Of a stretch of 64,000 nt of DNA, positions 9,376-27,886 are shown one piece after another. Position numbers and translations under genes: made by a program. Position 1 is the stretch's first letter, and the number at the start of each line of letters is the position of its first letter. The stretch is from Myxococcales bacterium (GTDB lineage Bacteria; Myxococcota_A; Polyangia; Polyangiales; Houyiibacteriaceae), in contig JAOTVB010000020.1 in assembly GCA_029863605.1 (NCBI GenBank), positions 1-64,000 on the forward strand, written 5' to 3'. The notes under the pieces are model-generated. The model saw only the letters and a program-made list of their open reading frames with translations. It made no database searches and had not been told where the DNA came from.

Positions 9376-9720
9376 CTAGCGAGACTCTTCTTCGCGAACA
9401 GCCTCGATGCGCTGCTCACGCCGATACACGGGGCCGGTGACGCCCCGAAGCTGGTCGGCGACCTTTTCGGGAACTTCGGACGCGCCAGCATCGACTTCGG
9501 GCGGTTGCGTCACGTCGTAGACCTGTTCGCCAATGTGCTTGGTGATCTTCTTGGTGGCGATGCCGACCTCGTAACCGAGCTCCTGAGCTTCGTCAGTGCT
9601 GATCACACGCATCAAGTGCTGGAACGGGGTTCGACCTCCGAGGCGGGCGAAAAACAACGCGTAGGTCAAGAAGCCGATGACGGCCCCCCTCCACAACAGC
9701 CTGATCGTTCGACGGATCAT
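9376..9720 (-). CDS. hypothetical single-TM protein
   Basis: 114 aa, N-terminal TM (AVIGFLTYALFFARLGG), overlaps the upstream regulator by 4 nt on the same strand. Confidence 0.6.
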   Translation of the reverse strand: MIRRTIRLLWRGAVIGFLTYALFFARLGGRTPFQHLMRVISTDEAQELGYEVGIATKKITKHIGEQVYDVTQPPEVDAGASEVPEKVADQLRGVTGPVYRREQRIEAVREEESR

Positions 9721-11114
9721 CCCTCTGCTCTACGGATACCATAAGTCCGCATTTTCTTGTGAAGATTGGTGCGCTCGACTCCCAAGATGGTGGCAGCTCG
9801 GGAGATGTTCCAACCCACCTCGTCGAGGGTTTGTAGGATGTAGTCCTTCTCGGCTCGGCTCCGGTATTCCCGCAGGGTCAAGCGCGCGCCTGACTCGTCG
9901 AGGGTGGGGGGGAGATCGCTTGGCGGCGTCGAACCGCGGCGTCCCTCGCTCAGCACGCCTTCCTCGGGGAGGTCGTCCATGGTGATGCGATCCCCGCTCA
10001 AGATCGCCATCCGTTCGACGACGTTGCGAAGCTCGCGGACGTTGCCCGGCCACGGTCGATCGGCCAACTCCTCGAGGACCTCGTCGTCGATCGGCTTCTC
10101 GCGAAGGCCATTCTCGAGCGAAAACTCGCGAAGGAAGCCCGTGGCCAGAAGCGGAATGTCCACCTTCCGATCGCGCAGAGGCGGGGTCAAAATCGGGATG
10201 ACATTGAGTCTGAAGTAGAGATCCTCCCGGAAGCGGCCTTCCTGGACCTCGACCTCGAGGTCTTTGTTGGTCGCCGCGAGCACGCGCACGTCCACCGCGA
10301 TCGACTTCTCGCTACCCACGCGAGAGATCTCGCCGCTTTGCAGAGCGCGAAGCACCTTCGCTTGAGCGCTAGCGCTCATGTCCCCAATCTCGTCTAGAAA
10401 AAGCGTGCCCTCGTTTGCCAGCTCGAACATGCCCTTCTTGCGACCCTGCGCCCCGGTGAACGCGCCTCGCTCGTAGCCAAAAAGCTCGCTCTCGATCAGC
10501 TCGGCAGGAATAGCCGCGCAGTTGACCTTGATGAAAGGACCGTCTGCTCGCGGGCTCAGCCGGTGGATCGCGCGCGCGATCAGCTCTTTGCCCGTGCCGC
10601 TCTCGCCCGTGATCAGAACGCGCCCGTTGGTAGGTGCGACCTTCTCGAGTTGTGCGAAGAGCTCCCGTATGGCCGGGCTCTCCCCGATCATTTCGTATCG
10701 GTGCTCGACGTCCGCGCGAAGCTGTTCGACCTCGCGCTGAAGCTGCCAGGTTTTGAGCGCGTTGCGCACGGTCACGAGAACGCGGTCGCGGTCGAGAGGC
10801 TTTTCGAAGAAATCGGTGGCGCCGAGTTGCACCGCTTGGACGGCCTCGGCAAGCGACGCGTGACCCGAGACCATGAGCACCGGCAATCGTCGGGTCTCGG
10901 GCTTACTGCGGATCTTGGAAAGTGCTTCGATGCCACTCATCTTCGGCAGCCGCACGTCGAGAATCACCAGGTCGACTTCGTGGTTCTCGAGCGCCTCGAG
11001 CCCCTCTTCGGCCGACCCTGCTTCGAGGGCGCTGAACCCCGAACCTTCGAGGACCATGCGAAGCGTGCGACGGATGTTCTTTTCGTCATCAACGACGAGG
11101 ATCGTGGCGCCCAT
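9717..11114 (-). CDS. sigma-54-dependent response regulator (NtrC family)
   Basis: [43 protein letters not shown], Fis HTH (NISRAATILGVERTNLHKKMRTYGI). Confidence 0.93.
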   Translation of the reverse strand: MGATILVVDDEKNIRRTLRMVLEGSGFSALEAGSAEEGLEALENHEVDLVILDVRLPKMSGIEALSKIRSKPETRRLPVLMVSGHASLAEAVQAVQLGATDFFEKPLDRDRVLVTVRNALKTWQLQREVEQLRADVEHRYEMIGESPAIRELFAQLEKVAPTNGRVLITGESGTGKELIARAIHRLSPRADGPFIKVNCAAIPAELIESELFGYERGAFTGAQGRKKGMFELANEGTLFLDEIGDMSASAQAKVLRALQSGEISRVGSEKSIAVDVRVLAATNKDLEVEVQEGRFREDLYFRLNVIPILTPPLRDRKVDIPLLATGFLREFSLENGLREKPIDDEVLEELADRPWPGNVRELRNVVERMAILSGDRITMDDLPEEGVLSEGRRGSTPPSDLPPTLDESGARLTLREYRSRAEKDYILQTLDEVGWNISRAATILGVERTNLHKKMRTYGIRRAEG

Positions 11115-12019: not shown

Positions 12020-12997
12020 CTAGTCGATGGCCAATTCTTCTAGGGCGGTTTGGGCGCGGGTCTTGGTTTTGGGGTGAGCGGCTGCGCGTTCTAGCCATGT
12101 GCGGGCCCGTTTCGCGTCGCCGAGCTTGGCATAGCAGCGCCCCAAGGCGAGCTCTTGCTCGGGGTCGGGCTTGACGCCCGCGTCGCGCCGGCGACGCTTC
12201 TCGAAGTCCGCGACGGTCTTTCGGCACGTGGCGTCGGTATCATCGCCGTCTTCCTTGACCTCTTTGTTGGCCTCTTGATCCGCCGACTCGTCCGCCAATG
12301 CCACGGTGCGTGCAGCGCCGGCAGCGCGTGCGTTGGCGGCCGGCGCCTGAACCATGTCCTCCATCCCCGCCACTGCACCAATGTCGGAGGCTTCTTCGGG
12401 CGCCGCTTCGACCGCTTTGGCTTGTCTCACAGGAGCAGAGGCGGCCCTACGCTTTTCTTGCGCGCGCTTCCGTCGCACGACCGAAGTCTTCGGTGGGCCC
12501 TCTGCCTGGCGCTCGGCCCGCGTTTCTTGATCGAGTCGCAACCCCTGTTCGGCTTTGTCGCTCACCGCCTCTTCGACCTCTACCGGGGCGCTCGCCGGCC
12601 TCGGCTCCGTCACGATGTCTTCGTCCGATTCGGCGAGGGGGGTGCCAAACCCATCTTCGGTTGCGAGCTCGTTGTCGCCCGGAATCGCCCACACGCCGAT
12701 GCCCACAGCCAGAAGGGCAATGGCTGCCATCGCCCACGGTGGCGCTTGAAAGCGGCGCTTGCCGACGCGCGCCACGTTCGTGCGTCGCATCACGGCTGCA
12801 CGCAGGATGTCGGCATCCACGCGTGCCGACGGGTCTTCCAGCGGAAGTTGGTCCACCGCGACGAGCGCGGCCTTCATCTCGTCGAACAGCGCTCGGCAAT
12901 CCGGACATCGGTCGAGGATCTCTCGCACTCCGGCAGGATCGACCGCCTCGCGTTCGATCAACTCGAGGACCTCCTCTTTGCATTGCTCACAGTTCAT
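12020..12997 (-). CDS. putative anti-sigma factor with TM segment and TPR-like C-terminus
   Basis: N-terminal MNCEQCKEEVLELIE...EILDRCPDCRALFDEM, TM WAMAAIALLAVGIGVWAI, C-terminal ALGRCYAKLGDAKRARTWLERAAAH; overlaps the ECF sigma gene by 11 nt. Confidence 0.75.
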   Translation of the reverse strand: MNCEQCKEEVLELIEREAVDPAGVREILDRCPDCRALFDEMKAALVAVDQLPLEDPSARVDADILRAAVMRRTNVARVGKRRFQAPPWAMAAIALLAVGIGVWAIPGDNELATEDGFGTPLAESDEDIVTEPRPASAPVEVEEAVSDKAEQGLRLDQETRAERQAEGPPKTSVVRRKRAQEKRRAASAPVRQAKAVEAAPEEASDIGAVAGMEDMVQAPAANARAAGAARTVALADESADQEANKEVKEDGDDTDATCRKTVADFEKRRRRDAGVKPDPEQELALGRCYAKLGDAKRARTWLERAAAHPKTKTRAQTALEELAID

Positions 12998-13598
12998 GTT
13001 TCTGCGGCTCCACTTCGCGTACGTGCTCCTCGAGGTCGCTCAAGCCGTTCTGCAGGCGCTCGAGCGCGTATCGCATGCGGCTCTTGACCGTATTGGCTGA
13101 CACCCCAACGACCTCGGCGATCTCTTTGAAGGCAAGGCCTTGCACCTGGCGCATCAGGAACACCTCCCGCTGGTCTTCGGGAAGTTCCTCCACCGCTTCG
13201 GCGATTCGCCTTTGGAGGGTCCGCCGCATCGCCAGGCGATCCGTGGACGGCCCGGGGTTGGGAACCCGCTCGCCCAGGCTCCGCGCCGAGCCCGGACCCG
13301 TGGCATCGAGGGATGCATGTCGCCGAAAGACCATCTTTCGCTGATGATCGACGCAATGGTTCCGGGCGATGGTGTACAGCCAGGTCGAGAACTTGGCGTC
13401 CCCCCGGAACTCGTCGCACCGTTCGATGACGCGCATCCAGACATCCTGGTAGAGTTCTTCCGCCCTCTCGCGATCGCGCGCCGACCGCAATAGGAAGTTG
13501 AAGAGAGGCCGTCGGTATCGAAAGAGCAACATCTCGAAGGCTTGGGTGTCGCCGGCTTGATAGGCGCAAAGGAGCTCTTCGTCCGGGGGATCGCTCAC
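12987..13598 (-). CDS. ECF-type RNA polymerase sigma factor
   Basis: FNFLLRSARDRERAEELYQDVWMRVIERCDEFRGDAKFSTWLYTIARNHCVDHQRK; region 4 EDQREVFLMRQVQGLAFKEIAEVVGVSANTVKSRMRYALERLQ. Confidence 0.93.
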   Translation of the reverse strand: MSDPPDEELLCAYQAGDTQAFEMLLFRYRRPLFNFLLRSARDRERAEELYQDVWMRVIERCDEFRGDAKFSTWLYTIARNHCVDHQRKMVFRRHASLDATGPGSARSLGERVPNPGPSTDRLAMRRTLQRRIAEAVEELPEDQREVFLMRQVQGLAFKEIAEVVGVSANTVKSRMRYALERLQNGLSDLEEHVREVEPQKHEL

Positions 13599-13758: not shown

Positions 13759-13788
13759 TTGACCCACGTGCTGGCGCTTTGGTATAAG
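13759..13788 (+). promoter_or_regulatory. sigma-70-like promoter of the 13.8-24.0 kb operon
   Basis: TTGACC (13759-13764), 18-bp spacer, TATAAG (13783-13788), about 60 nt upstream of the start codon at 13849. Confidence 0.6.
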
Positions 13789-13848: not shown

Positions 13849-14577
13849 ATGCGCGGGAAAGTTGCGCTTTCAGTCGTAGTGGCGTGCCTTTGGGCGGGCG
13901 GTGCCGTAGCGGTAGCCCAGACCGAAGCAGCGCCCCCACCGGATACGTCGACCGACACGCCGAGCGAAGCCGCGCCGAGCGAAACTGCGCCGACCCCGGC
14001 GGCACCTGTCACGGTGGCGCCGATCGATGCCGGCACGTATGCGGTCCGACTCCGAGATCTGGAACAGCGGATCAACGAGCTCAAAGAGCAGATTTTTCGT
14101 TCCAAGGCCCGGCTTTCGCTGCTCGCCGAAACAGTGCTCGAGGGCGTCGTTGGAGGTGGCCAGACGGTCATCGTCCACGAGAATCGAATGTCGGAGGGCT
14201 TCAAGCTCGTGCGCGTCGTGTACGCGCTCGATGGCGCTCCGATCTTTACCAAGGCCGATGAAGAAGGAGCCATCGGCGACCAAAAAGAGTTCGAGGTTTA
14301 CAACGGAAGCATCGTACCGGGCGAGCACACGTTGACGGTGAACCTCGAGTACCGTGGACATGGCTATGGGGTCTTCGCCTATTTGAAGGGCTACCGCTTC
14401 AAAGTTCGATCGACGTATACGTTCTCGGTCCCCGAAGGCCGCGTCGCGACCCTGGTCGTGGTCGGCTACGAGAAAGGTGGCCCGACGACTCCGCTCGAGG
14501 AACGACCTGCGGTGCGTTTCATCGAGCGGATCGAGCGTCAGGCGCGACCCGACGCAGAGGGTGAGGGCGTTCGGTAA
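13849..14577 (+). CDS. secreted hypothetical protein, coiled-coil plus beta-rich domain
   Basis: Signal peptide MRGKVALSVVVACLWAGGAVAVAQ, Pro/Ala linker, coiled coil RLRDLEQRINELKEQIFRSKARL, C-terminal beta-rich region. Stop overlaps the next start (TAATG). Confidence 0.75.
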   Translation: MRGKVALSVVVACLWAGGAVAVAQTEAAPPPDTSTDTPSEAAPSETAPTPAAPVTVAPIDAGTYAVRLRDLEQRINELKEQIFRSKARLSLLAETVLEGVVGGGQTVIVHENRMSEGFKLVRVVYALDGAPIFTKADEEGAIGDQKEFEVYNGSIVPGEHTLTVNLEYRGHGYGVFAYLKGYRFKVRSTYTFSVPEGRVATLVVVGYEKGGPTTPLEERPAVRFIERIERQARPDAEGEGVR

Positions 14578-16967
14578 TGGGACGGCGTGGGGCGACTCCA
14601 TCGCCGCCCTCACCAAAACTTGGCAGAGGGCGAGCGTGGCAACGGCGGTTGGGGGCAGTCCTGGCCGGAAGCCTTCTTGCGTCCGCCGCGTCCGTCGCCG
14701 CCCAGGACCTCAATCAACTCAACCGCGACTTAGCGGACGTCGAGTCCGACACGCAGCGTCTGATGAGCAGGCCGGTCCCCGTGGATACCCGAAAGACCGA
14801 CACATTCGTCGAGGAACGCCTCACGGACGGGGAGCTCTATCTTCGCCTGGAAGATTACCTTCGCGCGGCAATCTTGTTCACCGACATCGTCGAGCACTAT
14901 CAGACGCATCAGGCTTACCCGGAGGCGCTCTTCCTTCTCGGTGAGTCGCTCTTTCTCGCTGGTGACACCCTCGGTGCGAGACGTCGTTACGAAGAAGTCA
15001 TCGATCGGGGAACCGATTCAGCATTTTCCGTCTATCTCGAACGCTCACTCAGTCGGCTCATCGAAATCGCGATCGAGACCCAGGACTTTAGAGGCGTCGA
15101 TGTCTACTTCGCCCGACTGGAGGCGTTGCCGTCCTCCACGTTGTCGGTAACCACGGCATACTTCCGCGCCAAGTATCTCTACAACCGCGCCGTTCCGGTC
15201 GACCAGGTGCTCAACGCGCCTACCGATCGAGCGATTCGCGGCATCGACCAAGCCCGCCTCGAGCAGGCCCGTCAAGCTTTTCTCGCGATTCCGAGCGGCA
15301 ATGCCTACTCGCTTCGCGCCAAGTACTTCGTCGGAACCATCTATATTCTTCGTGCAGAGTACATCGATGCGATTGCGGCGTTCCGCACGGTTCTCGGCCA
15401 CGAGCCAGCGAACGAAGATGAAGCCGAGGTCGTCGAGCTCACCTATCTCGCATTGGCAAGGCTTTACTACGAGACCAGCCAACTCGAACAGGCCATCGAT
15501 GCATATCGCGCCGTGCCCCAAACCTCCGACCGGTTCGACGCTGCGCAGTACGAGCTCGCCTGGACGTACATCGCCATGGGCGACGCGGTCCAGGCGGAGC
15601 GGGCGCTCGAGGTGCTGTCGATTGCAGCACCGGACAGCCCGCTCAACGCGGATGGAAAAGTGCTGCGAGGAGAGCTGCTGGCACGTGCCGCCCGCTACAA
15701 CGAGGCAGAAGCGGTTTTCGAGGAGGTTCGAGACCAGTTCGGGCCAATCAGCGCGGAGCTCGACCGGACGCGCCTCGAGCACCCCGATTTACCCGAGTAT
15801 TTCAGGGGGCTTGTCCGGCAAAACCTAACCAACTTCGACATCGATGCCTTCCTGCCCGAAAGTGCGCGCCAGTGGGCGCCAGTCGAGGGCAACTACCAGC
15901 GCGCGCTTGGCTTGCTGGCGGACCTCAGCGAGGCGACGCAGCTCGTGGACGAAACCGACGAGCTAGCAGCTCGGATCACCGCCGCCCTGGCCGCGCCCAA
16001 TCGACTGGCTGTGTTCTCGGATCTACGGCGGCAACGCGAGAGGACGACCGGGCTTCGGAATCGACTCGCCCAGCTGCGCGGAGCCTACATCGATAGCGAG
16101 GAGCGCGCTCTCGGCCGTCGGACGGCGCAGGCCGACCAGATTCGGACCAGGCGCAAGGAGCTCCAGGCCAAAGTCAAGAAGATGCCGGTCGACACCGAAG
16201 ACTTCGTCGACCGAGATTTCGAGAAGCTCGGCGAATACCGAGCGCTCGAACGCGAGCTCCAGGGCCTTCGCGTCGAGATCCTAGGCCTCGAAGCGCGCAT
16301 CGTTGCCTCGAAGACCGGGATGGCGTCGGTCGACCCCCAGAAAGTCGACAGAGCCGCGCTCGAGGCACAGCTAGCCGACCATCAGGCAGAAATCGCAGAT
16401 TACGAGGAACGTTTGGTTTGGATCCGGCGGCGACTCGAGGTTGGGCGACTGCACGTCGGTGTGGGCGACAAACGATACCAATCCGATGCTCTCGAGCGGT
16501 CGAAGTTCAATGACCTGGTCAGACGAGAGCGGGGCATCGTCGGTTCGGCTGGGGCTGCGTTCGACAGCGCCCACGGGCGCATCGCAGCCACGGAGCGACT
16601 CCTCGACCGACGTGATGCCGAGGTCGACACGGTGGTCCAGAAGAGGGTTTCGCGGATGATGGCCGTCGTCGACGAAGAGACCCGAAATCTCTCACGCTAC
16701 CGTCGCGCGCTGAAGTCCGTCGAAGGTGAGACGGAGGATGTGGTCGGCGCGATCACTTACCTGAATTTCGAACGCATCCGACGCCGTTTCTACGATTTGG
16801 TCATGCGGGCTGATGTCGGCAAGATCGACGTCGCCTGGGCCAAACGCGAGGACCACCGGCTTCGAATCGACGGTCTGACACGGGAGCGTGCGCGCGAGAT
16901 TCAAGCGCTGGACGACGAGTTTCGTGATGTGATGGACCAAACCGATGGTTCAGAGGGGGGGCGATGA
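14577..16967 (+). CDS. TPR protein, large periplasmic; candidate GltC/NfsC-like by position
   Basis: Multiple TPR-like segments (LYLRLEDYLRAAILFTDIVEHYQTHQAYPEALFLLGESLFLAGDTLGARRRYEEVI) then long coiled coil; ATGA overlap with the next gene. Confidence 0.7.
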   Translation: MGRRGATPSPPSPKLGRGRAWQRRLGAVLAGSLLASAASVAAQDLNQLNRDLADVESDTQRLMSRPVPVDTRKTDTFVEERLTDGELYLRLEDYLRAAILFTDIVEHYQTHQAYPEALFLLGESLFLAGDTLGARRRYEEVIDRGTDSAFSVYLERSLSRLIEIAIETQDFRGVDVYFARLEALPSSTLSVTTAYFRAKYLYNRAVPVDQVLNAPTDRAIRGIDQARLEQARQAFLAIPSGNAYSLRAKYFVGTIYILRAEYIDAIAAFRTVLGHEPANEDEAEVVELTYLALARLYYETSQLEQAIDAYRAVPQTSDRFDAAQYELAWTYIAMGDAVQAERALEVLSIAAPDSPLNADGKVLRGELLARAARYNEAEAVFEEVRDQFGPISAELDRTRLEHPDLPEYFRGLVRQNLTNFDIDAFLPESARQWAPVEGNYQRALGLLADLSEATQLVDETDELAARITAALAAPNRLAVFSDLRRQRERTTGLRNRLAQLRGAYIDSEERALGRRTAQADQIRTRRKELQAKVKKMPVDTEDFVDRDFEKLGEYRALERELQGLRVEILGLEARIVASKTGMASVDPQKVDRAALEAQLADHQAEIADYEERLVWIRRRLEVGRLHVGVGDKRYQSDALERSKFNDLVRRERGIVGSAGAAFDSAHGRIAATERLLDRRDAEVDTVVQKRVSRMMAVVDEETRNLSRYRRALKSVEGETEDVVGAITYLNFERIRRRFYDLVMRADVGKIDVAWAKREDHRLRIDGLTRERAREIQALDDEFRDVMDQTDGSEGGR

Positions 16968-19900
16968 CCTGGGCGCGGCTCACGGCGTTCGCCTTGTGCG
17001 CGGCCTTGCTCCCAGTAACGCCCTCCGTCGGTGCGCAGGACGCGGAGCTCGAGCCGCAGCCCGACTCGGACGAGCCGGACCGTGACTCTCCACGAACCGA
17101 AGACGTCAAAGCAACCCCGTGGGAGGGTACGACCGACACCACCTTGCCGCCATTCTTGCAGGATACCGAAGAGCGCGTGGTGGACGAACGGCCGCGGCCC
17201 ACGGAGCAACAACTCGAGGGGTTGCGGCAGCTGGAAGGGGAAGTCGAACGGTTCCTCGAGAGCGGAGGTGCCTACCGCGACACGGTGACATCGCTGGTGC
17301 GTCGCGAATACCTTCAGCGACGACGCGCACGCGATCGTTGGTACGGCGCACAGATCGAGGCAGAGGACCGAGCCTTCAACGAGGCCCGGAAAGACGCGAT
17401 CCAAATTTTTGAAGAGTTCATCCGTCGTTATCCCGACCACCCGAGGTACAGCCCTGACGCGATGTTTCGCCTGGGAGAGCTCTACTTCGAGCAGAGCGCC
17501 ATCGAGTTTCAGCAGCTCTACGACCGGGCCCAGGCAGCTCGCGAGGCTGGAGACGCGACGGCGGAGGACGCTCTTCCGGCTGCGCCCGACTTCACCCCGA
17601 CGATCGAGCTCTACAAAGACTTAGCCCGCCGATTCCCGAAGTACGAGCGTTCCGACGGCGTGTACTATTTGATCGGATATACCCTGAACGAGACAGGTCG
17701 CCCCGAAGAGGCCATCGCCGCGTGGCTCGCCCTCGTGTGTGCCAACAAGTACGACTACGACCCCAATTGGCGCCCGCCACCTCCAGACGCCTCGGCAGCC
17801 GCGCAGGCCAGGTACCCGGCGCTGACCCTCGATGGTCGGCGCCTCGGCGCCTCGGTCGGCGGGAGGTTCGTCGACCCGTATGCGAACTGTGAGCCGATTT
17901 CGCCGGATGCTCGGTTCGTGAGCGAAACCTGGTTTCGAATCGGTGAGTACCACTTCGACGATTTCGGCGGCGAGAATGCCCTCGACCTCTCGATCGCCGC
18001 CTACGACCGAATCCTCGAGCAGCCCGATGATCGCAACTACAACCTCGCTCTCTACAAAGTCGCCTGGGCCTATTACCGCGCCAGCCGCTACCCCGAAGCG
18101 ATTCAGAACTTCGCCAAGCTCGTTCAGTGGTCCGACGACGCAGAGCGCGAAACTGGACGGGCTGGATCCGAGCTGCGACCCGAGGCAGTGGAGTACCTCG
18201 GCATCGCGTTCGCCTACGACGACTGGAACGAGAACCAGATCCCGGATCGTGCCGAGGGGAAGCGCACCGGCATCCAGCGAATCCAAGACGAGTCGTTGCT
18301 GCCACAAGACCGCGCCTGGACGCCGGAAGTCTACTTCCAGCTCGGCCAGGTGTACTTCGACGAAGCCAAGTATCCCGAGGCGATCGCCGCCTGGCGGCTC
18401 GCGCTGTCGAGGTGGCCCAATCACCACCGGACACCGGAGGTTCTGAACGACATTGCAGTTGCACATCAGATGCACAACGAGTTCGAAGAGGCGATCATCG
18501 CGCGCACCGAGCTCACCGGTTACGTGCAGGGGAGCACCTGGTGGAATGCAAACATGGATCGCCCGGCGGAGCAGCGAAACGCCGAGCAACTGGCCGAGAA
18601 CGCCCTGATCGTGACCGCCGTCCACCACCATTCTCGAGCGCAGCGCTTACGGCAACAATGCGTGGAGGAGCGGAACGTGCGGCTTTGTCGAGACGCTCAG
18701 CGCGAGTATGCACTCGCAGCGGCGGCGTACCGAGGATATCTCGAGCACTATCCCAACAACCCTCAAGGCTACGAACTACACTACAACCTGGCCGACGCGC
18801 TCTATTGGTCGGAGAGTTACGAACAAGCGGCCACCGAGTATGCGGAGGTTCGCGACTCCAATGTCGACGACAGCTATCTGGCCGAGTCCGCTCGTCGAGT
18901 CGTCGAGTCCTTGAAGCGAATTTCGGACCGGGACATCGAAGAGGGCCGTCTGGCCGTGCGGGATAAGGCCCCCGCAGTGGCGGGGGAGCCGCCGACCGCT
19001 CAGCCCGTCGCAATGCCGGGGACGGTCCAGCGTCTTGCGCGCGCGCGCGAAATCTATCTGACACGGGTCAGCCCGCAGCGCGACACCGAGGCCGTCCGCG
19101 CCGCCTACGACTACAACAATGCGTTGCTGCTTTATTGGTACGGCTACTGGCCACAGGCCAAAGCGCGCTTCAACCGCATCTACGAGGAGCGCTGCTCAGG
19201 AGCGGAAGCCGACGCCACGGGGCAAGTCGCGTGGGAGAATCTGCGCGCCATGGCGGTGGCCGAACGAGACTCCGAAGAGATCCGACGACTCGCGACCGAC
19301 ATTCAAGAGCGCGGTTGCACCTTCTCGGCGCGTGCCGCGGCGATCGATTGTGGCAAGCCCGCCAATCGTGACAAACCGATCTGTCGCGCCGGCTCCGATC
19401 TCAACGCGCTCGTCTATCAAGACGCGCTCGAGGTCTACAAGAGTGCGGCCGAAGCGACAGGCGCCGAACGCCAACGGCGCTACGAGCAGTCAGCGACGAT
19501 GTTACTCGGGGCGGTCAACGCCAATCCAAATGACAAGCAGGCTCCGATCGCGCTCGAGTATGCCGCGTTGGCACTGGAGGCGACCAACCGCTACGAGTCG
19601 GCCGGCACGCTGTATCAGCGAGTCATCGACGAGGTGGGGCCGCGTCGAGCAGAAGACGCAGAAGAGCAGAAGAGCCTCGACGCGATCCTTGCCAATGCAC
19701 ATTTCAAGCTCGCTTACAACGCAGCCCGCTACTTCGACTTCGACCGTGCCGTCGAAAACTACCGCGTGCTCGCCGACTCGAAGCGATTTGCAAGCTCCGC
19801 CGACCCGGCGGTCCAGCAGCAACGGACCAATGCCCTGGTCAACTCGGCCATCATGCTCGAGCAACTCCAGCAATACGAAGAGGCAGACAGATATTACAGG

Positions 19901-20845
19901 CGCGTCTACACCACCGTGGATGACCCCGACGTGAAGCGGACCGCCCTCTATCGAATCGCCGAGATGGCGTATCGACAAAAACGATACCCGGAAGCAATCC
20001 GAGGGATGCGCGAATTCATCAACGCGTACAGCAATGATGGCCAGGCCGGTGACCTCGTCGTGCAGGCCCATTGGCGAATCGCAGAATCGGAAAAGGCCCG
20101 AAGACGCTCTCGCGAGCATCGCGCAGCCCTGCTCGATGTGACCAAAGCGTATGAGCGCACCGGACAGCCGCCAGGATCGCTGGCTGCGGGTTACGCCGCA
20201 GAGGCCCGCTTCATTCTCGCCGACGGCAGGATCGACGATTTCGAGAAGTTCCAGATCAAAGTCAGCAAACCGAGGACGATCGAGGCGTACACCAGCAGTT
20301 TGGCCAAGCAGATCGAAAGGGGCAGCGCCGAGGCCCAGTCGATCGTGAAGGGATATGAGCCGGTGCTCGAGTATCGCCGTCCTCGCTGGACCATCGCGTC
20401 GTTCGTCCGCCAAGGCCGAACCTACGAGCTCCTGGCTCGTTCTATCCTGAACGCGCCGTTCGTCATGCCGCTCGACATGCAGAAGCAACTCCGTAAGGTC
20501 GACCAATACGACCGCGAAGACATTCGACTCGAGGTCGAAGATCGGGTGCGTCAACTGCTCGATGAAAAGGTGCGCCCCGTCGAATGCTTTGCGGTTGCGC
20601 GCTACGCGCTTGCGGCTCGGGCCGCGCGTGCGGGAAGCTTCGATGACGAGTACACCCGCATCGCGACCGATCGCTTGCAGGCCTATGGAGACGAACGCAT
20701 CGCGGAGTGCATCGCTGAGGCGCAAGCGCGAGACGCTACCTTCCAGGGCTACACACCCGGCGAGTTTGCCCGTGCTCCGCGTGGCAAGCCGATGGAGATT
20801 CGACCAGGCGTAGCACCCCCTGCTATCACGAAGGAGGAACGGTGA
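16964..20845 (+). CDS. very large TPR protein (1293 aa), GltD/NfsD (AgmU)-like
   Basis: Signal peptide, many TPR repeats (YSPDAMFRLGELYFEQSAIEFQQLYDRA; TPEVYFQLGQVYFDEAKYPEAIAAWRLALSRWPNHHRTPEVLNDIA). Family from size, architecture and order. Confidence 0.65.
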   Translation: MTWARLTAFALCAALLPVTPSVGAQDAELEPQPDSDEPDRDSPRTEDVKATPWEGTTDTTLPPFLQDTEERVVDERPRPTEQQLEGLRQLEGEVERFLESGGAYRDTVTSLVRREYLQRRRARDRWYGAQIEAEDRAFNEARKDAIQIFEEFIRRYPDHPRYSPDAMFRLGELYFEQSAIEFQQLYDRAQAAREAGDATAEDALPAAPDFTPTIELYKDLARRFPKYERSDGVYYLIGYTLNETGRPEEAIAAWLALVCANKYDYDPNWRPPPPDASAAAQARYPALTLDGRRLGASVGGRFVDPYANCEPISPDARFVSETWFRIGEYHFDDFGGENALDLSIAAYDRILEQPDDRNYNLALYKVAWAYYRASRYPEAIQNFAKLVQWSDDAERETGRAGSELRPEAVEYLGIAFAYDDWNENQIPDRAEGKRTGIQRIQDESLLPQDRAWTPEVYFQLGQVYFDEAKYPEAIAAWRLALSRWPNHHRTPEVLNDIAVAHQMHNEFEEAIIARTELTGYVQGSTWWNANMDRPAEQRNAEQLAENALIVTAVHHHSRAQRLRQQCVEERNVRLCRDAQREYALAAAAYRGYLEHYPNNPQGYELHYNLADALYWSESYEQAATEYAEVRDSNVDDSYLAESARRVVESLKRISDRDIEEGRLAVRDKAPAVAGEPPTAQPVAMPGTVQRLARAREIYLTRVSPQRDTEAVRAAYDYNNALLLYWYGYWPQAKARFNRIYEERCSGAEADATGQVAWENLRAMAVAERDSEEIRRLATDIQERGCTFSARAAAIDCGKPANRDKPICRAGSDLNALVYQDALEVYKSAAEATGAERQRRYEQSATMLLGAVNANPNDKQAPIALEYAALALEATNRYESAGTLYQRVIDEVGPRRAEDAEEQKSLDAILANAHFKLAYNAARYFDFDRAVENYRVLADSKRFASSADPAVQQQRTNALVNSAIMLEQLQQYEEADRYYRRVYTTVDDPDVKRTALYRIAEMAYRQKRYPEAIRGMREFINAYSNDGQAGDLVVQAHWRIAESEKARRRSREHRAALLDVTKAYERTGQPPGSLAAGYAAEARFILADGRIDDFEKFQIKVSKPRTIEAYTSSLAKQIERGSAEAQSIVKGYEPVLEYRRPRWTIASFVRQGRTYELLARSILNAPFVMPLDMQKQLRKVDQYDREDIRLEVEDRVRQLLDEKVRPVECFAVARYALAARAARAGSFDDEYTRIATDRLQAYGDERIAECIAEAQARDATFQGYTPGEFARAPRGKPMEIRPGVAPPAITKEER

Positions 20846-22194
20846 TGCGTCTTGAGGTACAGACGACTATGGCGTTCGTAGCGGTGATCTTCGCTGTGCA
20901 GGGTTGCAAGGGCGGCGGGCCGTCCATGCCCTCGGACCCCGAGGTCACGAGCGGCGGCGAGCTGCCGACGCAGAGCGACAGTGTCGAGAATGGTGGGCCA
21001 TCGCCGGCCATCGCGTCCACCGACCCGTCAGCAAGCCCATGGGGCGCTACGCGAGCAGAGCAATGCCGTCGCCCTGAGCGTACACCGATGTCGTCCAAAG
21101 CGAACAGGGCGTTCAAGCGCGGTGTAGACGCAACGCAGGCTAACGATGTCGCCTCCGCTCAAGAGCATTTCCAAGATGCCCTAAAGAAAGACGCGCGAGC
21201 ATACCCGGCACTCTACAACCTCGGCGTGCTCGCCGACCGATCCGGTAACGAGCAGAAGGCCCTCGATTATTATAAACGGTCTTTGGGAGTCCTTCCGGAC
21301 TACGAACCGGCGGCGCGCGGAATCGCGACGATCGAGATCCGTCAAGGAGATGTTCAACGCGCCGTGGCATCCGTAGAGCCCCTTGCCCGGGACCATCGAA
21401 CCAACCTGGAGATGCAAGCGCTCTACGCGGAAGTATTGGTCGAGGCGCGACGCTATGATGAAGCATGGATGGCGGCTAGGCGTGCTCTGAGGTGCGACGA
21501 GCGGTTCGTGCCGGCTCTGATCGCACTGACCAAGGCAAGCCGTGCGCAGGGTCGTGATGAGCTTGCTGACTCGATTTTGGACCAAGCGATGTCCATCGAC
21601 GCAAACGTGGCCGAGCTTCACTTCCTGATGGGTGAGAAGCTCAAAGACGAACCCGGTAGGCTCCGTGACGCGCTCCAGGCTTATCAGAAGGCGGTGCAGT
21701 TGCGTCCCGACTACACCGAAGCGCGGATGGCGCTCGGCATTCAGCTCTTGGCGGGTGGCAACTACGCCGGTGCTCTTTCCCATTTTCAGGTGGCGCAGAG
21801 GCTGGTGCCGGGCCTGCCAGCGGTCCACGTCAACCTCGGAGACGCCTATCGGGCCTCCGAACGATGGACCGATGCCCAGCAAGCCTACCGCCGCGCCCTC
21901 GAGCTCGAAACGAAGCTTCCGGAGGCTCACTTCGGCCTTGGGCTGCTATACCTGTCGGCAGCTGGGGATTTCCCGGGGCTCGACGAGGTCAGCGCGCTCG
22001 AAAAATCGGTCGACGAGTTCAAGCTGTACCGAAACCAGATGGGCCCCCGCCTTCGCCGTGACGACCAGTCGGAGGAGTACTTGCGCGACCTCGACCGCAT
22101 GATCCAACGCGCGAGGCGTCGGATCGAGCGCGACAAGGAGCGTGCCGCTCGAGAATCCGAGCGGGGCGCGAGAGAGGAGGAAGGGGCCGAATGA
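20845..22194 (+). CDS. TPR lipoprotein, GltE/NfsE (AglT)-like
   Basis: Lipobox-like AVIFAVQGCKGGG; TPRs (YPALYNLGVLADRSGNEQKALDYYKRSLGVLPDYEPA). Follows the 1293-aa TPR gene without gap. Confidence 0.65.
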   Translation: MRLEVQTTMAFVAVIFAVQGCKGGGPSMPSDPEVTSGGELPTQSDSVENGGPSPAIASTDPSASPWGATRAEQCRRPERTPMSSKANRAFKRGVDATQANDVASAQEHFQDALKKDARAYPALYNLGVLADRSGNEQKALDYYKRSLGVLPDYEPAARGIATIEIRQGDVQRAVASVEPLARDHRTNLEMQALYAEVLVEARRYDEAWMAARRALRCDERFVPALIALTKASRAQGRDELADSILDQAMSIDANVAELHFLMGEKLKDEPGRLRDALQAYQKAVQLRPDYTEARMALGIQLLAGGNYAGALSHFQVAQRLVPGLPAVHVNLGDAYRASERWTDAQQAYRRALELETKLPEAHFGLGLLYLSAAGDFPGLDEVSALEKSVDEFKLYRNQMGPRLRRDDQSEEYLRDLDRMIQRARRRIERDKERAARESERGAREEEGAE

Positions 22195-22445
22195 AACGCT
22201 ACGTATCCACGATTTGGCTCGTCTTTCTGCTGGCCGCGATCTTCACGACGACCGCTCTCGGCCAAGGCAAGAAGAAACGACAGCCGCGTGTGATTCAGCT
22301 CGAGGAGATCGTCATCGAAGGGCGCGTGCAAAAACCGAACGCGTTTTACATCCTCAATCGCTCCAATTTGGGCTATGAAGTGCTCGAGCTCCGCACGAGC
22401 TTCCTCCGCGAGGTCGCCCGGAGCGTGCAGGAGGAGCCGTTTTGA
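22191..22445 (+). CDS. small secreted protein, GltF-like
   Basis: 84 aa, signal peptide, RQPRVIQLEEIVIEGRVQKPNAFYILNRSNLGYEVLELRTSFLREVARSVQEEPF; ATGA overlap with the preceding TPR gene. Confidence 0.6.
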   Translation: MKRYVSTIWLVFLLAAIFTTTALGQGKKKRQPRVIQLEEIVIEGRVQKPNAFYILNRSNLGYEVLELRTSFLREVARSVQEEPF

Positions 22446-22512
22446 TGATCCGCACGCCCACCAGATCCTTGGTTTCGGCCAAACGTCTCCTCGAGATACG
22501 GAGTAGGGCACG

Positions 22513-23979
22513 ATGACGCAACCGGAGAGTCCGAGGACGGGAACACGACCCGGCGCCATGACGATGGCCATGCAGGCCGTGCCGATGAAAAGGGGCGGCC
22601 CAAAGGTCCTGCGTATCGGTCTCTTCAAAGAGAAGAAGATCGTCGAAGAGCGGATCATTCGTCGCCGAGAGACCGTCTCCATCGGAACTGCGGCGAGGAA
22701 CCATCTGATCATCAAATCTGGTACGTTGCCGGCGAAGCTGGAGTCGCGCTTCGATCTCTTTCAACTGGTAGGCGACGACTACATCCTGAACTTCACCGGG
22801 GACATGAGCGGCAAGGTGGCGCTACCCGGGGGCGTCCAAAAGCTCGAACATCTTCGAGAAACGGGCGCAGCTCGCAACGCCGGGACGCACTATCAGATCA
22901 AGTTGGCAGACAGCTCCCGCGGCACCATTCGGATGGGAGACTTCACGGTTTTTTTCGAGTTCGTGGCCGCCCCGCCGATCACGCCGAAGCCGCAATTGCC
23001 GGCGGCGGTTCAGCGAGGCTTCGTCAAGAACATCGACTGGGCCTTCACGATCTCGGTGATCCTCTCCTACCTGTCGTTTTTCGGGTTCATCATCTATCTA
23101 GAGAACGCCGACTGGGAGATCGAAACAGGCACCCAAGAGATGCCCGAAAATCTGGCTCGCCTGATCTTCGAAGCGCCCGTCGAACCCCCCGAGGTCGAGG
23201 AAGAAGTACCGGGAGACGACGCCGAGGAAGAGTCCGAGGAAAAAGAGGCAAAGGCGGAGCGGCCGGACAAGAAACCCGACGCCCGAGAAGCCCAGGAGGC
23301 CGCAGGCAGCGCGGAAGACCCGGCCGTTAGCGCCGAGGCCCGTGCACGGATCGCGCAGGAAGCAGCGGCCCAGGCCGAAGCGATGTTGCTCGGCGCGCTG
23401 GGTGGCGACGGAGGGGCGCTCGGTGACGTACTCGCCGGGGGCGCCGTGACAGGCAACGCCGCCGATGTGTTGGCGCAGGCCTCGGGCGTCGGGGTCGCCA
23501 CCAAAAGCGAGACCGGAACGCTCCGCACGCGTACCGGAGGTGGCAGCGGGCAAAGCGCAGGCCTCGGCTCACTCAAGGCTTCGAAAGGCGCTGGCAGAGC
23601 CGCCAAGGAGGGCGCCGCGGTCAAGGAGCGCCAGGTCCGTGGAAACGTGGGGGTCCGAACGGGTGGTGACATCGGCGGCAGCGGCGAGTTCGATGCAGCG
23701 CTCGTCCAGCGGCAGATCAAACAGCGCATCAAGTCGATCACTCGGTGCTACGAATCCGAGCTTCGGAAGAACCCGGGCCTTGCCGGCAAGGTCACCGTGA
23801 CCTTCACGATCCAAGAACGCGGAAACGTGACCGGCGCCAAGGCGACAGAGAATACGACGGGTAGCCCTGCCGTCGCAGACTGCGTGACCCGAACGATCAG
23901 CCGCTTTCGATTCAATCCGGGACCGGACGGCGGCAGTGTCACCTTCCGCTATCCCTTTGTTTTCCAGCCCCAGAACTGA
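22513..23979 (+). CDS. FHA-like / TM / TonB-C-terminal (AgmX/PglI C-terminal domain) protein, GltG/NfsG-like
   Basis: N-terminal FHA-like region (VEERIIRRRETVSIGTAARNHLIIKS), single TM (AFTISVILSYLSFFGFIIYL), acidic/Ala-rich linker, C-terminal RQIKQRIKSITRCYESELRKNPGLAGKVTVTFTIQERGNVTGAK...DCVTRTISRFRF. Confidence 0.8.
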   Translation: MTQPESPRTGTRPGAMTMAMQAVPMKRGGPKVLRIGLFKEKKIVEERIIRRRETVSIGTAARNHLIIKSGTLPAKLESRFDLFQLVGDDYILNFTGDMSGKVALPGGVQKLEHLRETGAARNAGTHYQIKLADSSRGTIRMGDFTVFFEFVAAPPITPKPQLPAAVQRGFVKNIDWAFTISVILSYLSFFGFIIYLENADWEIETGTQEMPENLARLIFEAPVEPPEVEEEVPGDDAEEESEEKEAKAERPDKKPDAREAQEAAGSAEDPAVSAEARARIAQEAAAQAEAMLLGALGGDGGALGDVLAGGAVTGNAADVLAQASGVGVATKSETGTLRTRTGGGSGQSAGLGSLKASKGAGRAAKEGAAVKERQVRGNVGVRTGGDIGGSGEFDAALVQRQIKQRIKSITRCYESELRKNPGLAGKVTVTFTIQERGNVTGAKATENTTGSPAVADCVTRTISRFRFNPGPDGGSVTFRYPFVFQPQN

Positions 23980-24028
23980 TTTTCTTGGAGCAGCGACACA
24001 TTTACCGCATAACTGGACGGTCAATCCA

Positions 24029-24056
24029 TTGACTTGAGTGACACGCCACGTATAAT
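24029..24056 (+). promoter_or_regulatory. near-consensus sigma-70 promoter
   Basis: TTGACT (24029-24034), 16-bp spacer, TATAAT (24051-24056), 25 nt before ATG 24082; AGGAG at 24070-24074. Confidence 0.75.
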
Positions 24057-24081
24057 TCTGCGCAAGTTTAGGAGATCGTTG

Positions 24082-24678
24082 ATGTTTACACGGATGAGGC
24101 CGTTGGTGGGGGTGTGCCTCGGCTTGTTGCTGGCTGGAAGCGGGCTCGACTACGGCATGGCTCAGGGCCGCGACGCGACCGTCGAGGTGCTCAAAGTCGA
24201 ATCCGTCAACGCGAGAGCCGAGCCGACGATCCTGTCTCCGAAACAGCAGGCGCAAGCGGCAGACGCTGCCGTGACGGAGGCCACCTCTACGTGTGCAGCG
24301 CAGGCTCAAGCCCTTCAAAGCGCCAAGAGTGAGAAAGACATCATCCGTGCGACTTGCCTCGATGACAAGCTCGCGCAGTGCAACGCAAACCTTCAAAACC
24401 TAAAGCGCCGCCAAGCCGCGCTGAACGAGTCGATCCAGGCCAACGACGCGGGGAGTCGCAATCACGAGTTTGCAGTCATCGGTGTCTTGTCGCAGAAGTT
24501 CAAGATGCTTCAACAGGCAGCCAACCAGTGTATAGGGCAAGATCTCTTCGACACTGGAGATACGAAAGTGAGGCAAGAGGTTGATCTATTCGCGCCCGAC
24601 GCGGACCCCGCGGTCGTAACCGGAGTTCCGGAGCCGCCCATCCCCTACATTCCCCCACCGGTGAGTGGTGTCAGCTAA
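24082..24678 (+). CDS. secreted hypothetical protein, coiled-coil
   Basis: MFTRMRPLVGVCLGLLLAGSGLDYGMAQ signal peptide; helical, Ala/Gln-rich; Pro-rich C-terminus. Confidence 0.7.
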   Translation: MFTRMRPLVGVCLGLLLAGSGLDYGMAQGRDATVEVLKVESVNARAEPTILSPKQQAQAADAAVTEATSTCAAQAQALQSAKSEKDIIRATCLDDKLAQCNANLQNLKRRQAALNESIQANDAGSRNHEFAVIGVLSQKFKMLQQAANQCIGQDLFDTGDTKVRQEVDLFAPDADPAVVTGVPEPPIPYIPPPVSGVS

Positions 24679-24714
24679 CTAGCGGAGTGCGATGCGTAGG
24701 GGGGGTACTAGTTC

Positions 24715-26031
24715 ATGCGCTGCTGCCTGAAGCTAGGGCTCTCTCTGGCTGCAGCAGTCCTGGCGTTTTCGACGCTTGCAGAGGCTCAGCCGTTTCTCGA
24801 GGACCGTGCTGCAAACGAAGGCCCGGGTTTCAAGACCGGCCGCTTCGTTCTTCATCCAGGCATAGCAGTCGATGGCGGGTACGACTCGAACGTCTTTCTC
24901 GAAAGCTCGAATGCCGAAGACTCATTCATCCTTCGTCTGACCGGCTACTTGGACTTCGCAACGCTGAGCGCGCAGCGCCAGGCTGAAGGCGAGAGCAGGA
25001 AAGTCGAGCCACAGAAGATCACGTTTCGAGGCGGTGTCGGCGCGACCTACTACCACTACTTCAGTAACCGCGTGCAGGACAATGTGGGGGCCGACGCCCA
25101 CGTAGACTTCGCCTACAACCCCTCGCGCGTGTTTTCGCTGCAGATACGGGACACATTCCGTCGGACCATCCGGCCATTTTCTGATCCGGATACCGTGACG
25201 GGGGAGACGACCAGCTACGGACGCAACATCAACAATGCGACGCTCGATCTCGTCGGGCGTAGCAAGAGCGAAGTGCTGGAAGGGCGGGTCGGCTATAAGA
25301 ACTCCATCGAGCTCTTCGACGCGGAGATCTATCAGTACGGCGACAACCTAACCCATCGGGTTCCGGCGCAGCTCAGTTGGCGCTTTTTCCCAAGCTCTGC
25401 GATCGTCTACGACTTCGAGTTCGCCCACCAGCAATACCTCAACCCAGATCTCGTCGCGCTCTCCCCGACCGAACTGTCAGACAACAATAGGGTGCGAAGT
25501 CAGATCGGGTACAACGGCGCCCTCACCAATACACTGTCGCTTACGGCACTTATCGGATACGCGGTAGGGTTCTACGAGGTGCTCCAAGACTTCGACGACG
25601 TCACGGCAAGAGTCGAAGCACGGTGGACGCCACGCCCCACGATTTCTCTCGATGGGGGCTACATCCGCAATATTCTTCCGTCGTTCATCGGCAATTTCAC
25701 GGTGATGAATCGCCTCTATGTCAACGCGACATTCACCGCCGCGGGGGCCTTGTCGCTTGGGCTCAAGGCATGGGTGTCGTTCGACAAGTCGGGACTGGCG
25801 CTCACCCCAGAGGGCTCTTTGCTCGGGACGGAGCCCGAGCGTAAGGATATTCGGACCCGCGTCGCACTCTGGGGCGAATACCGCTTCAAAGCGTGGTTCT
25901 CGGTGTTTGCCGAGGTCGGTTACCTGGCAGACTTCACCGACTTCCAGTACGTGGGCGTCACACCATTGCTGGATCCGTCTGGGGAATACCAGAAAGTCGA
26001 AGCATGGATCGGCCTTCGCGTCTTTTACTGA
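24715..26031 (+). CDS. outer-membrane beta-barrel protein, polysaccharide-export porin-like (WzpX/EpsX-type candidate)
   Basis: Signal peptide, HPGIAVDGGYDSNVFLESSNAEDSFILRLTGYLDF, alternating amphipathic strands to the C-terminus ending in an aromatic (RVFY). Confidence 0.7.
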   Translation: MRCCLKLGLSLAAAVLAFSTLAEAQPFLEDRAANEGPGFKTGRFVLHPGIAVDGGYDSNVFLESSNAEDSFILRLTGYLDFATLSAQRQAEGESRKVEPQKITFRGGVGATYYHYFSNRVQDNVGADAHVDFAYNPSRVFSLQIRDTFRRTIRPFSDPDTVTGETTSYGRNINNATLDLVGRSKSEVLEGRVGYKNSIELFDAEIYQYGDNLTHRVPAQLSWRFFPSSAIVYDFEFAHQQYLNPDLVALSPTELSDNNRVRSQIGYNGALTNTLSLTALIGYAVGFYEVLQDFDDVTARVEARWTPRPTISLDGGYIRNILPSFIGNFTVMNRLYVNATFTAAGALSLGLKAWVSFDKSGLALTPEGSLLGTEPERKDIRTRVALWGEYRFKAWFSVFAEVGYLADFTDFQYVGVTPLLDPSGEYQKVEAWIGLRVFY

Positions 26032-26612
26032 TAGTTGTCCCGCTCATCGCTGGAATTGGTGCAACTGCTTGCAGCAAACGCCACGTTCAGGTGACCGAGG
26101 TGCCCCCACCTGCGACGGATGACACGACACTCGGGCCGGGAGACTCGTTCTCGATCCGGGTCTTCGGCGAAGACGCGCTGTCGGGCGATCATCAAGTGGC
26201 TCCCGACGGCACGATCAACTTCCCGCTTCTCGGCGCAGTGGAGGTCGACGGCCTCGAGCCCACCGAGGTCGCAACCAAGCTCGAGAACGAGCTTCGCGAA
26301 CGGGATCTGCTTCGTAATCCAAATGTCTCCGTCTATGTTCGGGAGTACGCGTCAAAACGGATCAGCGTGGTCGGGGCGGTCGCAAATCCAGGCGCCTTCC
26401 CGCTCGAACCAGGCATGACAGTCGTCCAGGCGATCAGCATGGCGGGAGGGTTTTCGTCGTTGGCTGACCGAGACGGCACGGTGGTCACGCGTCGCATCGG
26501 TGACGAGACCGTGCGCTACCGGGTTCCCGTGGAGCGCGTGACGCGGGGTCAAGCTAAAGATATCGAGGTCGCCGCCGGCGACATCATTTTCGTCCCGGAA
26601 AGACTCTTCTAG
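26004..26612 (+). CDS. short OPX (Wza-like) polysaccharide export lipoprotein
   Basis: Lipobox GIGATACS, PES domain (GPGDSFSIRVFGEDALSGDHQVAPDGTINFPLLGAVEVDGL), SLBB (RISVVGAVANPGAFPLEPGMTVVQAISMAGG); 203 aa, overlaps the porin gene by 28 nt. Confidence 0.88.
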   Translation: MDRPSRLLLIVVPLIAGIGATACSKRHVQVTEVPPPATDDTTLGPGDSFSIRVFGEDALSGDHQVAPDGTINFPLLGAVEVDGLEPTEVATKLENELRERDLLRNPNVSVYVREYASKRISVVGAVANPGAFPLEPGMTVVQAISMAGGFSSLADRDGTVVTRRIGDETVRYRVPVERVTRGQAKDIEVAAGDIIFVPERLF

Positions 26613-27886
26613 AGGCTCCAGTATCTCAAGTCGCTTCTCAGGCCGCTCGGGTCTACTAACGACTTCACATCGACGAACACACCACCGCTCCGCACGCAGT
26701 CGACGATGTGATCGAGCCGATTGAGATAGCGTGCGTGGGGTACCACCAACACGACGCCATCGAGATCGGTCAGCGCGTCCCAAGGGCGGAGCTCGATCCC
26801 GTAGGTGCGGCTCGCTTCCTCGCCCGACGCCAAGGGATCGTGCACGAGGGGCTCGATGCCGTAGTCACGAAGCTCCTCGATCATGTCCGGGACCCGGCTG
26901 TTGCGAAGGTCCGGGACATTCTCCTTGAACGTCAAACCGAGAACACCGATGCGGCAGTCCTTGATTGGATGACCTTGCTGCCGCAGGAGCTTCACGACTC
27001 GCTTGGCCACGTAGCGCCCCATGTCGTCGTTGATCCGGCGGCCGGCGAGGATCACCTCGGGATGATAGCCCACTGCCTCGGCCTTCGAAGTCAGATAGTA
27101 GGGGTCGACCCCGATGCAATGCCCACCGACCAACCCTGGTGAGAATCGGAGGAAGTTCCATTTCGTGGCCGCCGCATCGAGCACATCCTTGGTACGAATG
27201 TCGAGCCTGTCGAAGATCAGCGCAAGCTCGTTCATGAGCGCGATGTTGAGGTCTCTTTGTGTGTTTTCGATCACCTTGGCTGCCTCGGCGACCTTGATCG
27301 ACGGGGCGCGGTGGACGCCGGCGTCGACGACTCGTTCGTAAGCGCTGGCGACTCGTTCGAGGGTTTCGGGATCTTCGCCAGCAACGACCTTGATGATCTT
27401 TTCGAAGGTGTGTTCCCTGTCGCCTGGGTTGATGCGCTCTGGCGAATATCCGAGCTTGAAGTCTCTGGACTGCGTCAACCCTGAAGCTTCGGACAAGACA
27501 GGCCCGCAGCGTTCCTCGGTCACGCCGGGGTAGACGGTCGATTCGTAGACGACCACTCCACCCGGCGCCAGAGCGCTGCCGACGATCTTCGTCGCCGAGA
27601 TGAGGGCGCTGAGATTTGGTCGCCGATCGTCGTCGATCGGGGTAGGCACCGCCACGATGAAGAAGGTGCACCCGCGGAGATCGGCAGGGTCGCTGGTCAG
27701 TTGCAGCGTTGACTCGGCAAGCTCCGACTCGCTCATTTCCCGCGTGCGATCCTCGTTGGCATGCAATGCCTCGATGCGTTCGGCCGACACGTCGAAGCCC
27801 ACAGTCTTTTCGAACTCACGGGCGAAGGCCAACGCCACAGGAAGCCCCACATACCCGAGACCTATCACTGCGACCCGTTCACTCAT
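26609..27886 (-). CDS. nucleotide-sugar dehydrogenase (UDP-N-acetyl-hexosamine/WbpA-TviB type)
   Basis: MSERVAVIGLGYVGLPVALAFAREFEKTVGFDV, ESTVYPGVTEE, FSPGLVGGHCIGVDPYYLT, GLTFKENVPDLRNS. Confidence 0.9.
   Translation of the reverse strand: MSERVAVIGLGYVGLPVALAFAREFEKTVGFDVSAERIEALHANEDRTREMSESELAESTLQLTSDPADLRGCTFFIVAVPTPIDDDRRPNLSALISATKIVGSALAPGGVVVYESTVYPGVTEERCGPVLSEASGLTQSRDFKLGYSPERINPGDREHTFEKIIKVVAGEDPETLERVASAYERVVDAGVHRAPSIKVAEAAKVIENTQRDLNIALMNELALIFDRLDIRTKDVLDAAATKWNFLRFSPGLVGGHCIGVDPYYLTSKAEAVGYHPEVILAGRRINDDMGRYVAKRVVKLLRQQGHPIKDCRIGVLGLTFKENVPDLRNSRVPDMIEELRDYGIEPLVHDPLASGEEASRTYGIELRPWDALTDLDGVVLVVPHARYLNRLDHIVDCVRSGGVFVDVKSLVDPSGLRSDLRYWSL

Follow-up and report, generated by a model that had tools for sequence, protein, structure and literature searches.

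Genes and features at the locus

The window, by which we mean the whole 64,000-nt stretch of DNA analysed here, carries six consecutive genes on the forward strand between positions 13849 and 23979, which we refer to as X1, C, D, E, F, and G (Table 1). All six open reading frames of the original prediction are real, and the tight junctions between them can be read directly as TAATG (14575-14579), ATGA (16964), GTGATG (20842), and ATGA (22191), followed by a 67-nt gap ahead of the last gene, G (22513). Screening with NCBIfam profiles supported the predicted Glt/Nfs-like order and architecture: C, E, F, and G match the GltC, GltE, CglF, and GltG models, and as profile similarities go these matches are far above chance, so that the TPR proteins C and E are not members of unrelated families. 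All four scores lie below the equivalog cut-offs, and the proteins are thus relatives of the Glt proteins, not necessarily orthologues. The operon is a diverged copy of the complex with which myxobacteria transmit force in the envelope during gliding and spore-coat assembly. The 1,293-aa TPR protein had no GltD equivalog match in NCBIfam and is therefore named D by architecture and position; it is conserved in 20 loci. E possesses a weak lipobox (VQGC).

X1 had no Pfam or NCBIfam match. Its mean column identity is 46% across 16 sequences, and a fold search with its structural model (pLDDT 79) returned only weak beta-sandwich matches, to cell-adhesion proteins and transthyretin (best E 2.6e-3). 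In family f5 and some others, X1 is tandemly duplicated (L151, L155, L158, L163, L166, L169, and L172). A PDB sequence search with the 488-aa G and the 1,293-aa D gave no match, nor did an Rfam scan of the 64,000-nt window.

Table 1. Features of the locus and the two motor triads elsewhere in the genome (positions are those of the window unless preceded by the contig name C28)
Feature	Position	Strand	Description	Evidence
Putative anti-sigma factor	12020-12997	-	Membrane-anchored, zinc finger, C-terminal helical region	Overlaps sigma gene
ECF-type sigma factor	12987-13598	-	Divergent to operon	Sigma70_r2 1.4e-16, Sigma70_r4_2 7.8e-18
Sigma70-type promoter	13759-13788	+	TTGACC-N18-TATAAG	90 nt before first ATG (X1)
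X1	13849-14577	+	Secreted, 242 aa; coiled coil (residues 61-97) and beta-sandwich domain	Cluster-type marker
C	14577-16967	+	TPR/coiled-coil protein, 796 aa, GltC-like	NF033756, E = 1.3e-20, 73.7 bits
D	16964-20845	+	Secreted TPR protein, 1,293 aa, GltD/NfsD position	TPR repeats, position, size
E	20842-22194	+	TPR lipoprotein, 450 aa, GltE-like	NF033758, E = 3.8e-28
F	22191-22445	+	Secreted, 84 aa, CglF/GltF-like	NF033764 (CglF), E = 4.8e-5
G	22513-23979	+	488 aa; degenerate FHA fold, membrane helix 176-198, TonB/AgmX-PglI C-terminal domain	See text
Sigma70 promoter before H-B-O	24029-24056	+	TTGACT-N16-TATAAT	11 of 12 consensus positions
H	24082-24678	+	Secreted cysteine-containing protein beside B, 198 aa	ATG with AGGAG upstream
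B	24715-26031	+	Putative outer-membrane beta-barrel, EpsL/BBP2_2-like, WzpB position	NCBIfam EpsL 8.7e-8, Pfam BBP2_2 0.0018
O	26004-26612	+	Short OPX lipoprotein, 202 aa, WzaB-like	Poly_export 7.9e-22, SLBB 2.6e-14, no Wza_C
Nucleotide-sugar genes	26609-31735	-	TviB-like UDP-GlcNAc dehydrogenase, epimerases, PseB-like dehydratase	TviB-like 8.8e-127, PseB-like 4.2e-56
R1-Q1-S1	C28:75748-77555	-	ExbB-ExbD-ExbD triad	AglRQS-like
R2-Q2-S2	C28:77986-79695	+	ExbB-ExbD-ExbD triad	AglRQS-like

The G protein

G was expected to combine an FHA-like domain, one membrane helix, and a TonB-like C-terminus of the AgmX/PglI type, and both profiles and predicted structure bear this out. It matches GltG (NF033760, E = 9.7e-48, 163.2 bits) and, above the model cut-off, the AgmX/PglI C-terminal domain (NF033768, 2.2e-27). 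In the AlphaFold2 model, the N-terminal beta domain and the C-terminal alpha/beta domain are confident, and residues 176-198 form a helix; the underlying alignment was shallow (18 rows) and the linker disordered, and our use of the model is restricted to the helix and the two terminal domains. Foldseek matched the N-terminal domain to an FHA domain (1uht, probability 1.00, E 2e-3) and the C-terminal domain to the TonB C-terminal domain of FusB (probability 1.00). No Pfam FHA match was obtained with G, and its FHA domain is seen by structure only. In all aligned relatives this domain has IGT/VGS and lacks the Arg and the SxxH motif, whereas the GltG protein encoded on contig C5 of the same genome (see below) keeps these phosphothreonine-binding residues. 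The phospho-signal that G had been proposed to transmit is thus unlikely, and since the key residues are missing in all aligned relatives, the FHA fold of G is probably a protein contact rather than a phosphothreonine reader.

A longer conserved cluster with two promoters

The block had been described as six genes, but it runs on past position 23979 into H, the beta-barrel gene B, and the short OPX gene O (start ATG at 26004, lipoprotein-like signal), which are co-conserved with it: H is conserved in 18, B in 17, and O in 15 of the fetched loci. Upstream, 62 of 80 fetched loci have an orthologue of the divergent ECF sigma factor gene next to the operon, and the putative anti-sigma factor, which had no Pfam or NCBIfam match, reads as a CxxC...CxxC N-terminus with one hydrophobic segment. 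The layout ECF / X1-C-D-E-F-G-H-B-O recurs across the order, whose other families keep the order of the six genes at roughly 25-65% identity, and the gene order together with the divergent ECF gene is kept across many families of the phylum, 179 of whose 239 genomes possess X1. The X1 scan of genome contigs yielded 80 metagenome-assembled relatives, Myxococcus xanthus not being among them.

The promoter ahead of X1 has constant hexamers and a constant position across the genus as well as in several further families, with a varying spacer, and relatives also have a TTGACA/TATAAT-like site near H. Because there are two conserved sigma70-like promoters, X1-G and H-B-O probably form two transcription units. 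An ECF-type operon promoter was also sought; the conserved site is sigma70-like instead, and control by the neighbouring ECF factor is unsupported. H-B-O breaks up in places: the OPX gene lies about 3.7 kb from the barrel gene in one relative (L196:1492-7037) and on another contig in a second (G037). Two NtrC-type sigma54 response regulators are encoded further upstream of the operon (7961-9304, forward strand; 9717-11114, reverse strand), and only a few relatives have similar genes close to the cluster.

A probable link to polysaccharide export

Short OPX proteins that pair with an 18-stranded beta-barrel have been described as a composite export system, Class 3 OPX (PMC9601211, PMC9603273). 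O fits this class, as it combines Poly_export and SLBB domains with a lipoprotein-like signal and has no Wza_C; B is assigned as a barrel from its EpsL/BBP2_2 similarity, the count of 18 strands being that of the Class 3 partner in the cited papers. Two relatives connect these genes with polymer synthesis. One of them (G044) has X1-G without H-B-O, which elsewhere in that genome heads a cluster with Wzy- and Wzc-like genes, and in the other (G054), H-B-O adjoin Wzc- and Wzy-like genes. On contig C17, the genome that harbours the window encodes relatives of that Wzc (46.6% over 683 aa), of Wzy (34.5%), and of AsnB (48%), plus a WecB-like gene. No OPX gene was found at the C17 cluster, and the only other OPX in the genome is longer and distant from O. 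Given these three observations (H-B-O adjoining Wzc and Wzy in relatives, a C17 cluster without OPX, and a sole other OPX that is distant), O is likely the exporter of the C17 polymer. The nucleotide-sugar genes that follow O are predicted to serve an acidic, N-acetylated polymer; as neighbours they are conserved at the genus level only (in L043 and partly in L048).

Motor genes and an ExbB-like remnant

The original prediction saw an operon without motor genes, which is correct for the window and incorrect for the genome. Neither ExbB nor ExbD was detected by Pfam or NCBIfam among the genes at 13849-26612, and none of the genome's ExbB genes lies in the window. Genome-wide, the search for an AglRQS-type motor that had been suggested with the prediction revealed two AglRQS-like triads side by side on contig C28 (L034), which are divergent and account for two of four ExbB-family genes; the others belong to Tol-Pal (L033) and TonB-ExbBD (L035). 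We thus rejected the notion that all four are Tol-Pal or TonB components. The divergent pair of R1 and R2 triads is present in all 15 fetched genomes of the order, and the R1 triad on C28 has intact pore threonines.

In 11 of 20 loci of other families and classes, the window-type cluster carries an ExbB-ExbD-ExbD triad between F and G, and all 11 copies have both conserved pore threonines. By BLAST, the Q subunits of these in-operon motors are closest to Q1 of the window's genome in ten of 11 cases and the S subunits to S1 in all 11, while R is mixed. A concatenated motor tree unites the R1 triads of the order, six standalone triads (L238-L242 and L244), and seven of the 11 in-operon motors in one group (support 96), and places R2 in a separate deep clade (support 100). 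The standalone triads come from genomes whose window-type cluster has no motor, and four in-operon motors (OPL182, 183, 188, and 192) fall outside the best-supported R1 subclade. The simplest reading of these sequence relationships would be that the motor was once inside the operon and moved out in the window's order to sit back to back with R2. Across the phylum, motor genes have entered or left the operon on more than one occasion.

Most families of the order encode a membrane protein of about 200 aa at the old motor site, between F and G. Its alignment with the in-operon ExbB covers 186 columns (HHalign probability 97), and one copy reaches Pfam MotA_ExbB (1.2e-4). Both pore threonines are present in all 15 motor-type sequences, and both are lost in all 31 scorable remnants; a single exception in the list of remnants, L156, is a true in-operon ExbB. 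The remnant gene has been lost in the window genus and in family f5. Because relatives retain a remnant at the ancestral motor site and the window genus has lost it, the lack of motor genes in the operon is derived. Where the remnant persists (L044-L054 and L118-L148; e.g., L045:6823-7625), it is possibly an adaptor for the relocated motor.

By analogy with the contact between AglR and GltG (PMC3169522) and with the transport of Exo by Agl-Nfs (PMC3858216), we infer that R1-Q1-S1 drives G. A shared R2 motor, itself AglRQS-like, would be an unlikely substitute. Sharing is known from AglRQS, which serves both Glt and Nfs in M. xanthus (PMC3858216), and it is conceivable here since, at the threshold applied, the R2 type is the only triad in some genomes with a motor-less window-type cluster (G062, G090, and G139); against this, the in-operon Q and S proteins are closer to Q1 and S1 than to Q2 and S2, and the in-operon motors group with R1 in the tree.

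A separate Glt cluster in the same genome

The host genome (100% complete, 0.24% contamination) possesses a second Glt-type cluster on contig C5 (52585-61453), which matches GltC (280.8 bits), GltE (115), CglF (61.2), and GltG: its GltG reaches 391.7 bits versus 163.2 bits for the G of the window, and has an intact FHA domain (1.1e-18). The cluster (L036, C5:52585-70000) is followed by a TPR gene and then a giant TPR-like frame, at least 2,485 aa long, in an order that recalls the GltI arrangement. In a tree of 70 G proteins, those of the Glt type form one clade (99 SH-aLRT), and the window type and its derivatives lie on the other side. The proposed phylogeny against glt and nfs is thereby answered for its glt part, with the G of the window outside the Glt clade. 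Both types occur in several classes, which points to an old split. As the genome's true Glt cluster lies on C5, the window operon is, judged from these sequence comparisons, an ancient paralogue of the Glt cluster, and not the Glt orthologue as which it might have been read. X1, H, B, and O all went undetected in 20 Glt-type loci. No GltG exceeded the equivalog cut-off in searches that covered the phylum and the order of G064. Some genomes have a third type of cluster (L216 and L217), in which ExbB-ExbD-ExbD genes lie beside an AgmX/PglI protein and weakly similar C and D genes.

These data also bear on whether the operon could be a second Glt set, encoding an ordinary Glt/Nfs transducer that serves gliding or sporulation, with OPX and barrel neighbours that are incidental. 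The clear homology to GltC, E, F, and G would suit such a role, as would the service of Agl motors in both gliding and sporulation in M. xanthus (PMC3858216). We nevertheless consider it rather improbable, since the genome has a closer Glt cluster with a canonical FHA domain and a giant TPR gene, G proteins of the Glt type and of the window type form separate clades throughout the phylum, O and B lie adjacent across many families and are not found in Glt-type clusters, and polar mutation of the G4 gltD homologue in M. xanthus produced no motility phenotype (PMC3169522).

A proposed envelope machine acting on an exported polymer

We favour, with somewhat better than even confidence, a reading in which X1-C-D-E-F-G forms the envelope transducer of a machine powered by a proton motor, with a BPS-like polysaccharide leaving by its own O/B pore as the substrate. 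The six proteins would span the envelope as the transducer of an AglRQS-type, proton-driven machine whose load is a secreted acidic polysaccharide and whose motor would be R1-Q1-S1 on C28. Motion at the inner membrane would travel along the helix of G to its TonB-like C-terminus, and from there to the periplasmic TPR proteins D and C and the lipoprotein E, which would engage the polymer at the B/O pore or beyond it. The load would be the product of the Wzx/Wzy-type cluster on C17, exported through O and B as a composite translocon, and the machine would either move the emerging polymer along the surface or help to draw it out, as Agl-Nfs does with Exo. Contacts of G with R1 and of D and E with B and O are predicted, and export of the C17 polymer by O/B, like the direction and purpose of the movement, belongs to the inferred part of the scheme. 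The link between X1-G and H-B-O may be loose, because H-B-O has its own conserved promoter and is detached from X1-G in some genomes.

A static, motor-free periplasmic scaffold that only couples the OPX/beta-barrel pore to the inner membrane, as the original description of a motor-less operon suggests, would agree with the lack of a motor in the window and with a remnant that has lost both pore threonines and, in the window genus, is gone altogether, but it is very doubtful given a related complete triad with intact pore threonines on C28 and the divergent pair in 15 of 15 genomes of the order.

Extending the motor-driven reading to the phylum is more tentative, and we would put it somewhat below an even chance. 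The locus may represent a motorised exporter in which a proton-driven AglRQS-type motor is coupled through a Glt-like transducer directly to its own OPX/beta-barrel pore and exerts force on the polymer while it is exported or immediately afterwards. Motor genes would have left the operon in the window's order, with a threonine-less ExbB-like subunit remaining in most families as a possible structural adaptor.

Comparison with known systems

Every part of the locus is of a known kind, and their combination looks undescribed: in the open-access main texts searched, we found no description of a single conserved locus that unites an OPX/beta-barrel pore with a Glt-like transducer and the transducer's own motor, and none of motor relocation with a threonine-less ExbB remnant. 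Within the same body of texts, the OPX papers mention no Nfs neighbours and the BPS paper mentions neither Nfs nor AglR.

The locus resembles a Class 3 OPX translocon in its 202-aa OPX protein with Poly_export and SLBB domains, no membrane-spanning domain, and a barrel gene beside it; it differs in that the pair is linked to a motor-type transducer and not only to Wzx/Wzy genes. With the AglRQS-Glt gliding machine (PMC3169522) it shares homologous C, E, F, and G proteins and the type of motor, yet it belongs to a different clade, has a degenerate FHA domain, lacks GltI/GltJ-like neighbours, and coexists with a separate Glt orthologue on C5. The likeness to AglRQS-Nfs, which moves the Exo polymer at the spore surface (PMC3858216), concerns both the machine (a TPR/TonB-like transducer with a TolQR-type motor) and the load (a polysaccharide with a short OPX and a barrel, ExoA/ExoB), and the order C-D-E-F-G in one cluster is that of nfsA-H (PMC3858216). 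However, nfs and exo are separate loci, whereas here transducer and translocon form one locus, together with X1, H, and an ECF sigma gene. Nfs is reported to be closest to Glt (PMC3169522); the G of the window falls outside the Glt clade in the 70-protein tree.

In M. xanthus, the counterpart of the window operon is most likely the G4 cluster, beside the "orphan" genes wzaB and wzpB. WzaB/WzpB are MXAN_1915/1916 (PMC7310880, PMC9603273) and the gltD homologue of G4 is MXAN_1922 (PMC3169522), which puts six to seven locus numbers between it and the barrel and short OPX genes; by tag arithmetic, D-E-F-(Q)-G-H-B-O fits MXAN_1922 to MXAN_1915. Like the window operon, G4 is a paralogous Glt-type cluster, with no motility phenotype upon polar mutation of its gltD homologue. 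The papers on wzaB call the gene an orphan or orphan-like and mention no Glt-like neighbours, and they report a BPS mutant phenotype and, in Sandaracinus amylolyticus, a homologue accompanied by genes for BPS (PMC7310880). In 2011, no function was assigned to G4 and G5, which are Glt-like paralogues (PMC3169522). The conserved locus would bring a G4-type cluster and wzaB together, with the prediction that polymer from the WzaB/WzpB pore is the substrate of a Glt-like motor complex. The general view of Agl-type machines as transporters of surface polysaccharides thereby becomes testable in a vegetative setting that involves neither sporulation nor gliding, with such machines spread across most of the phylum.
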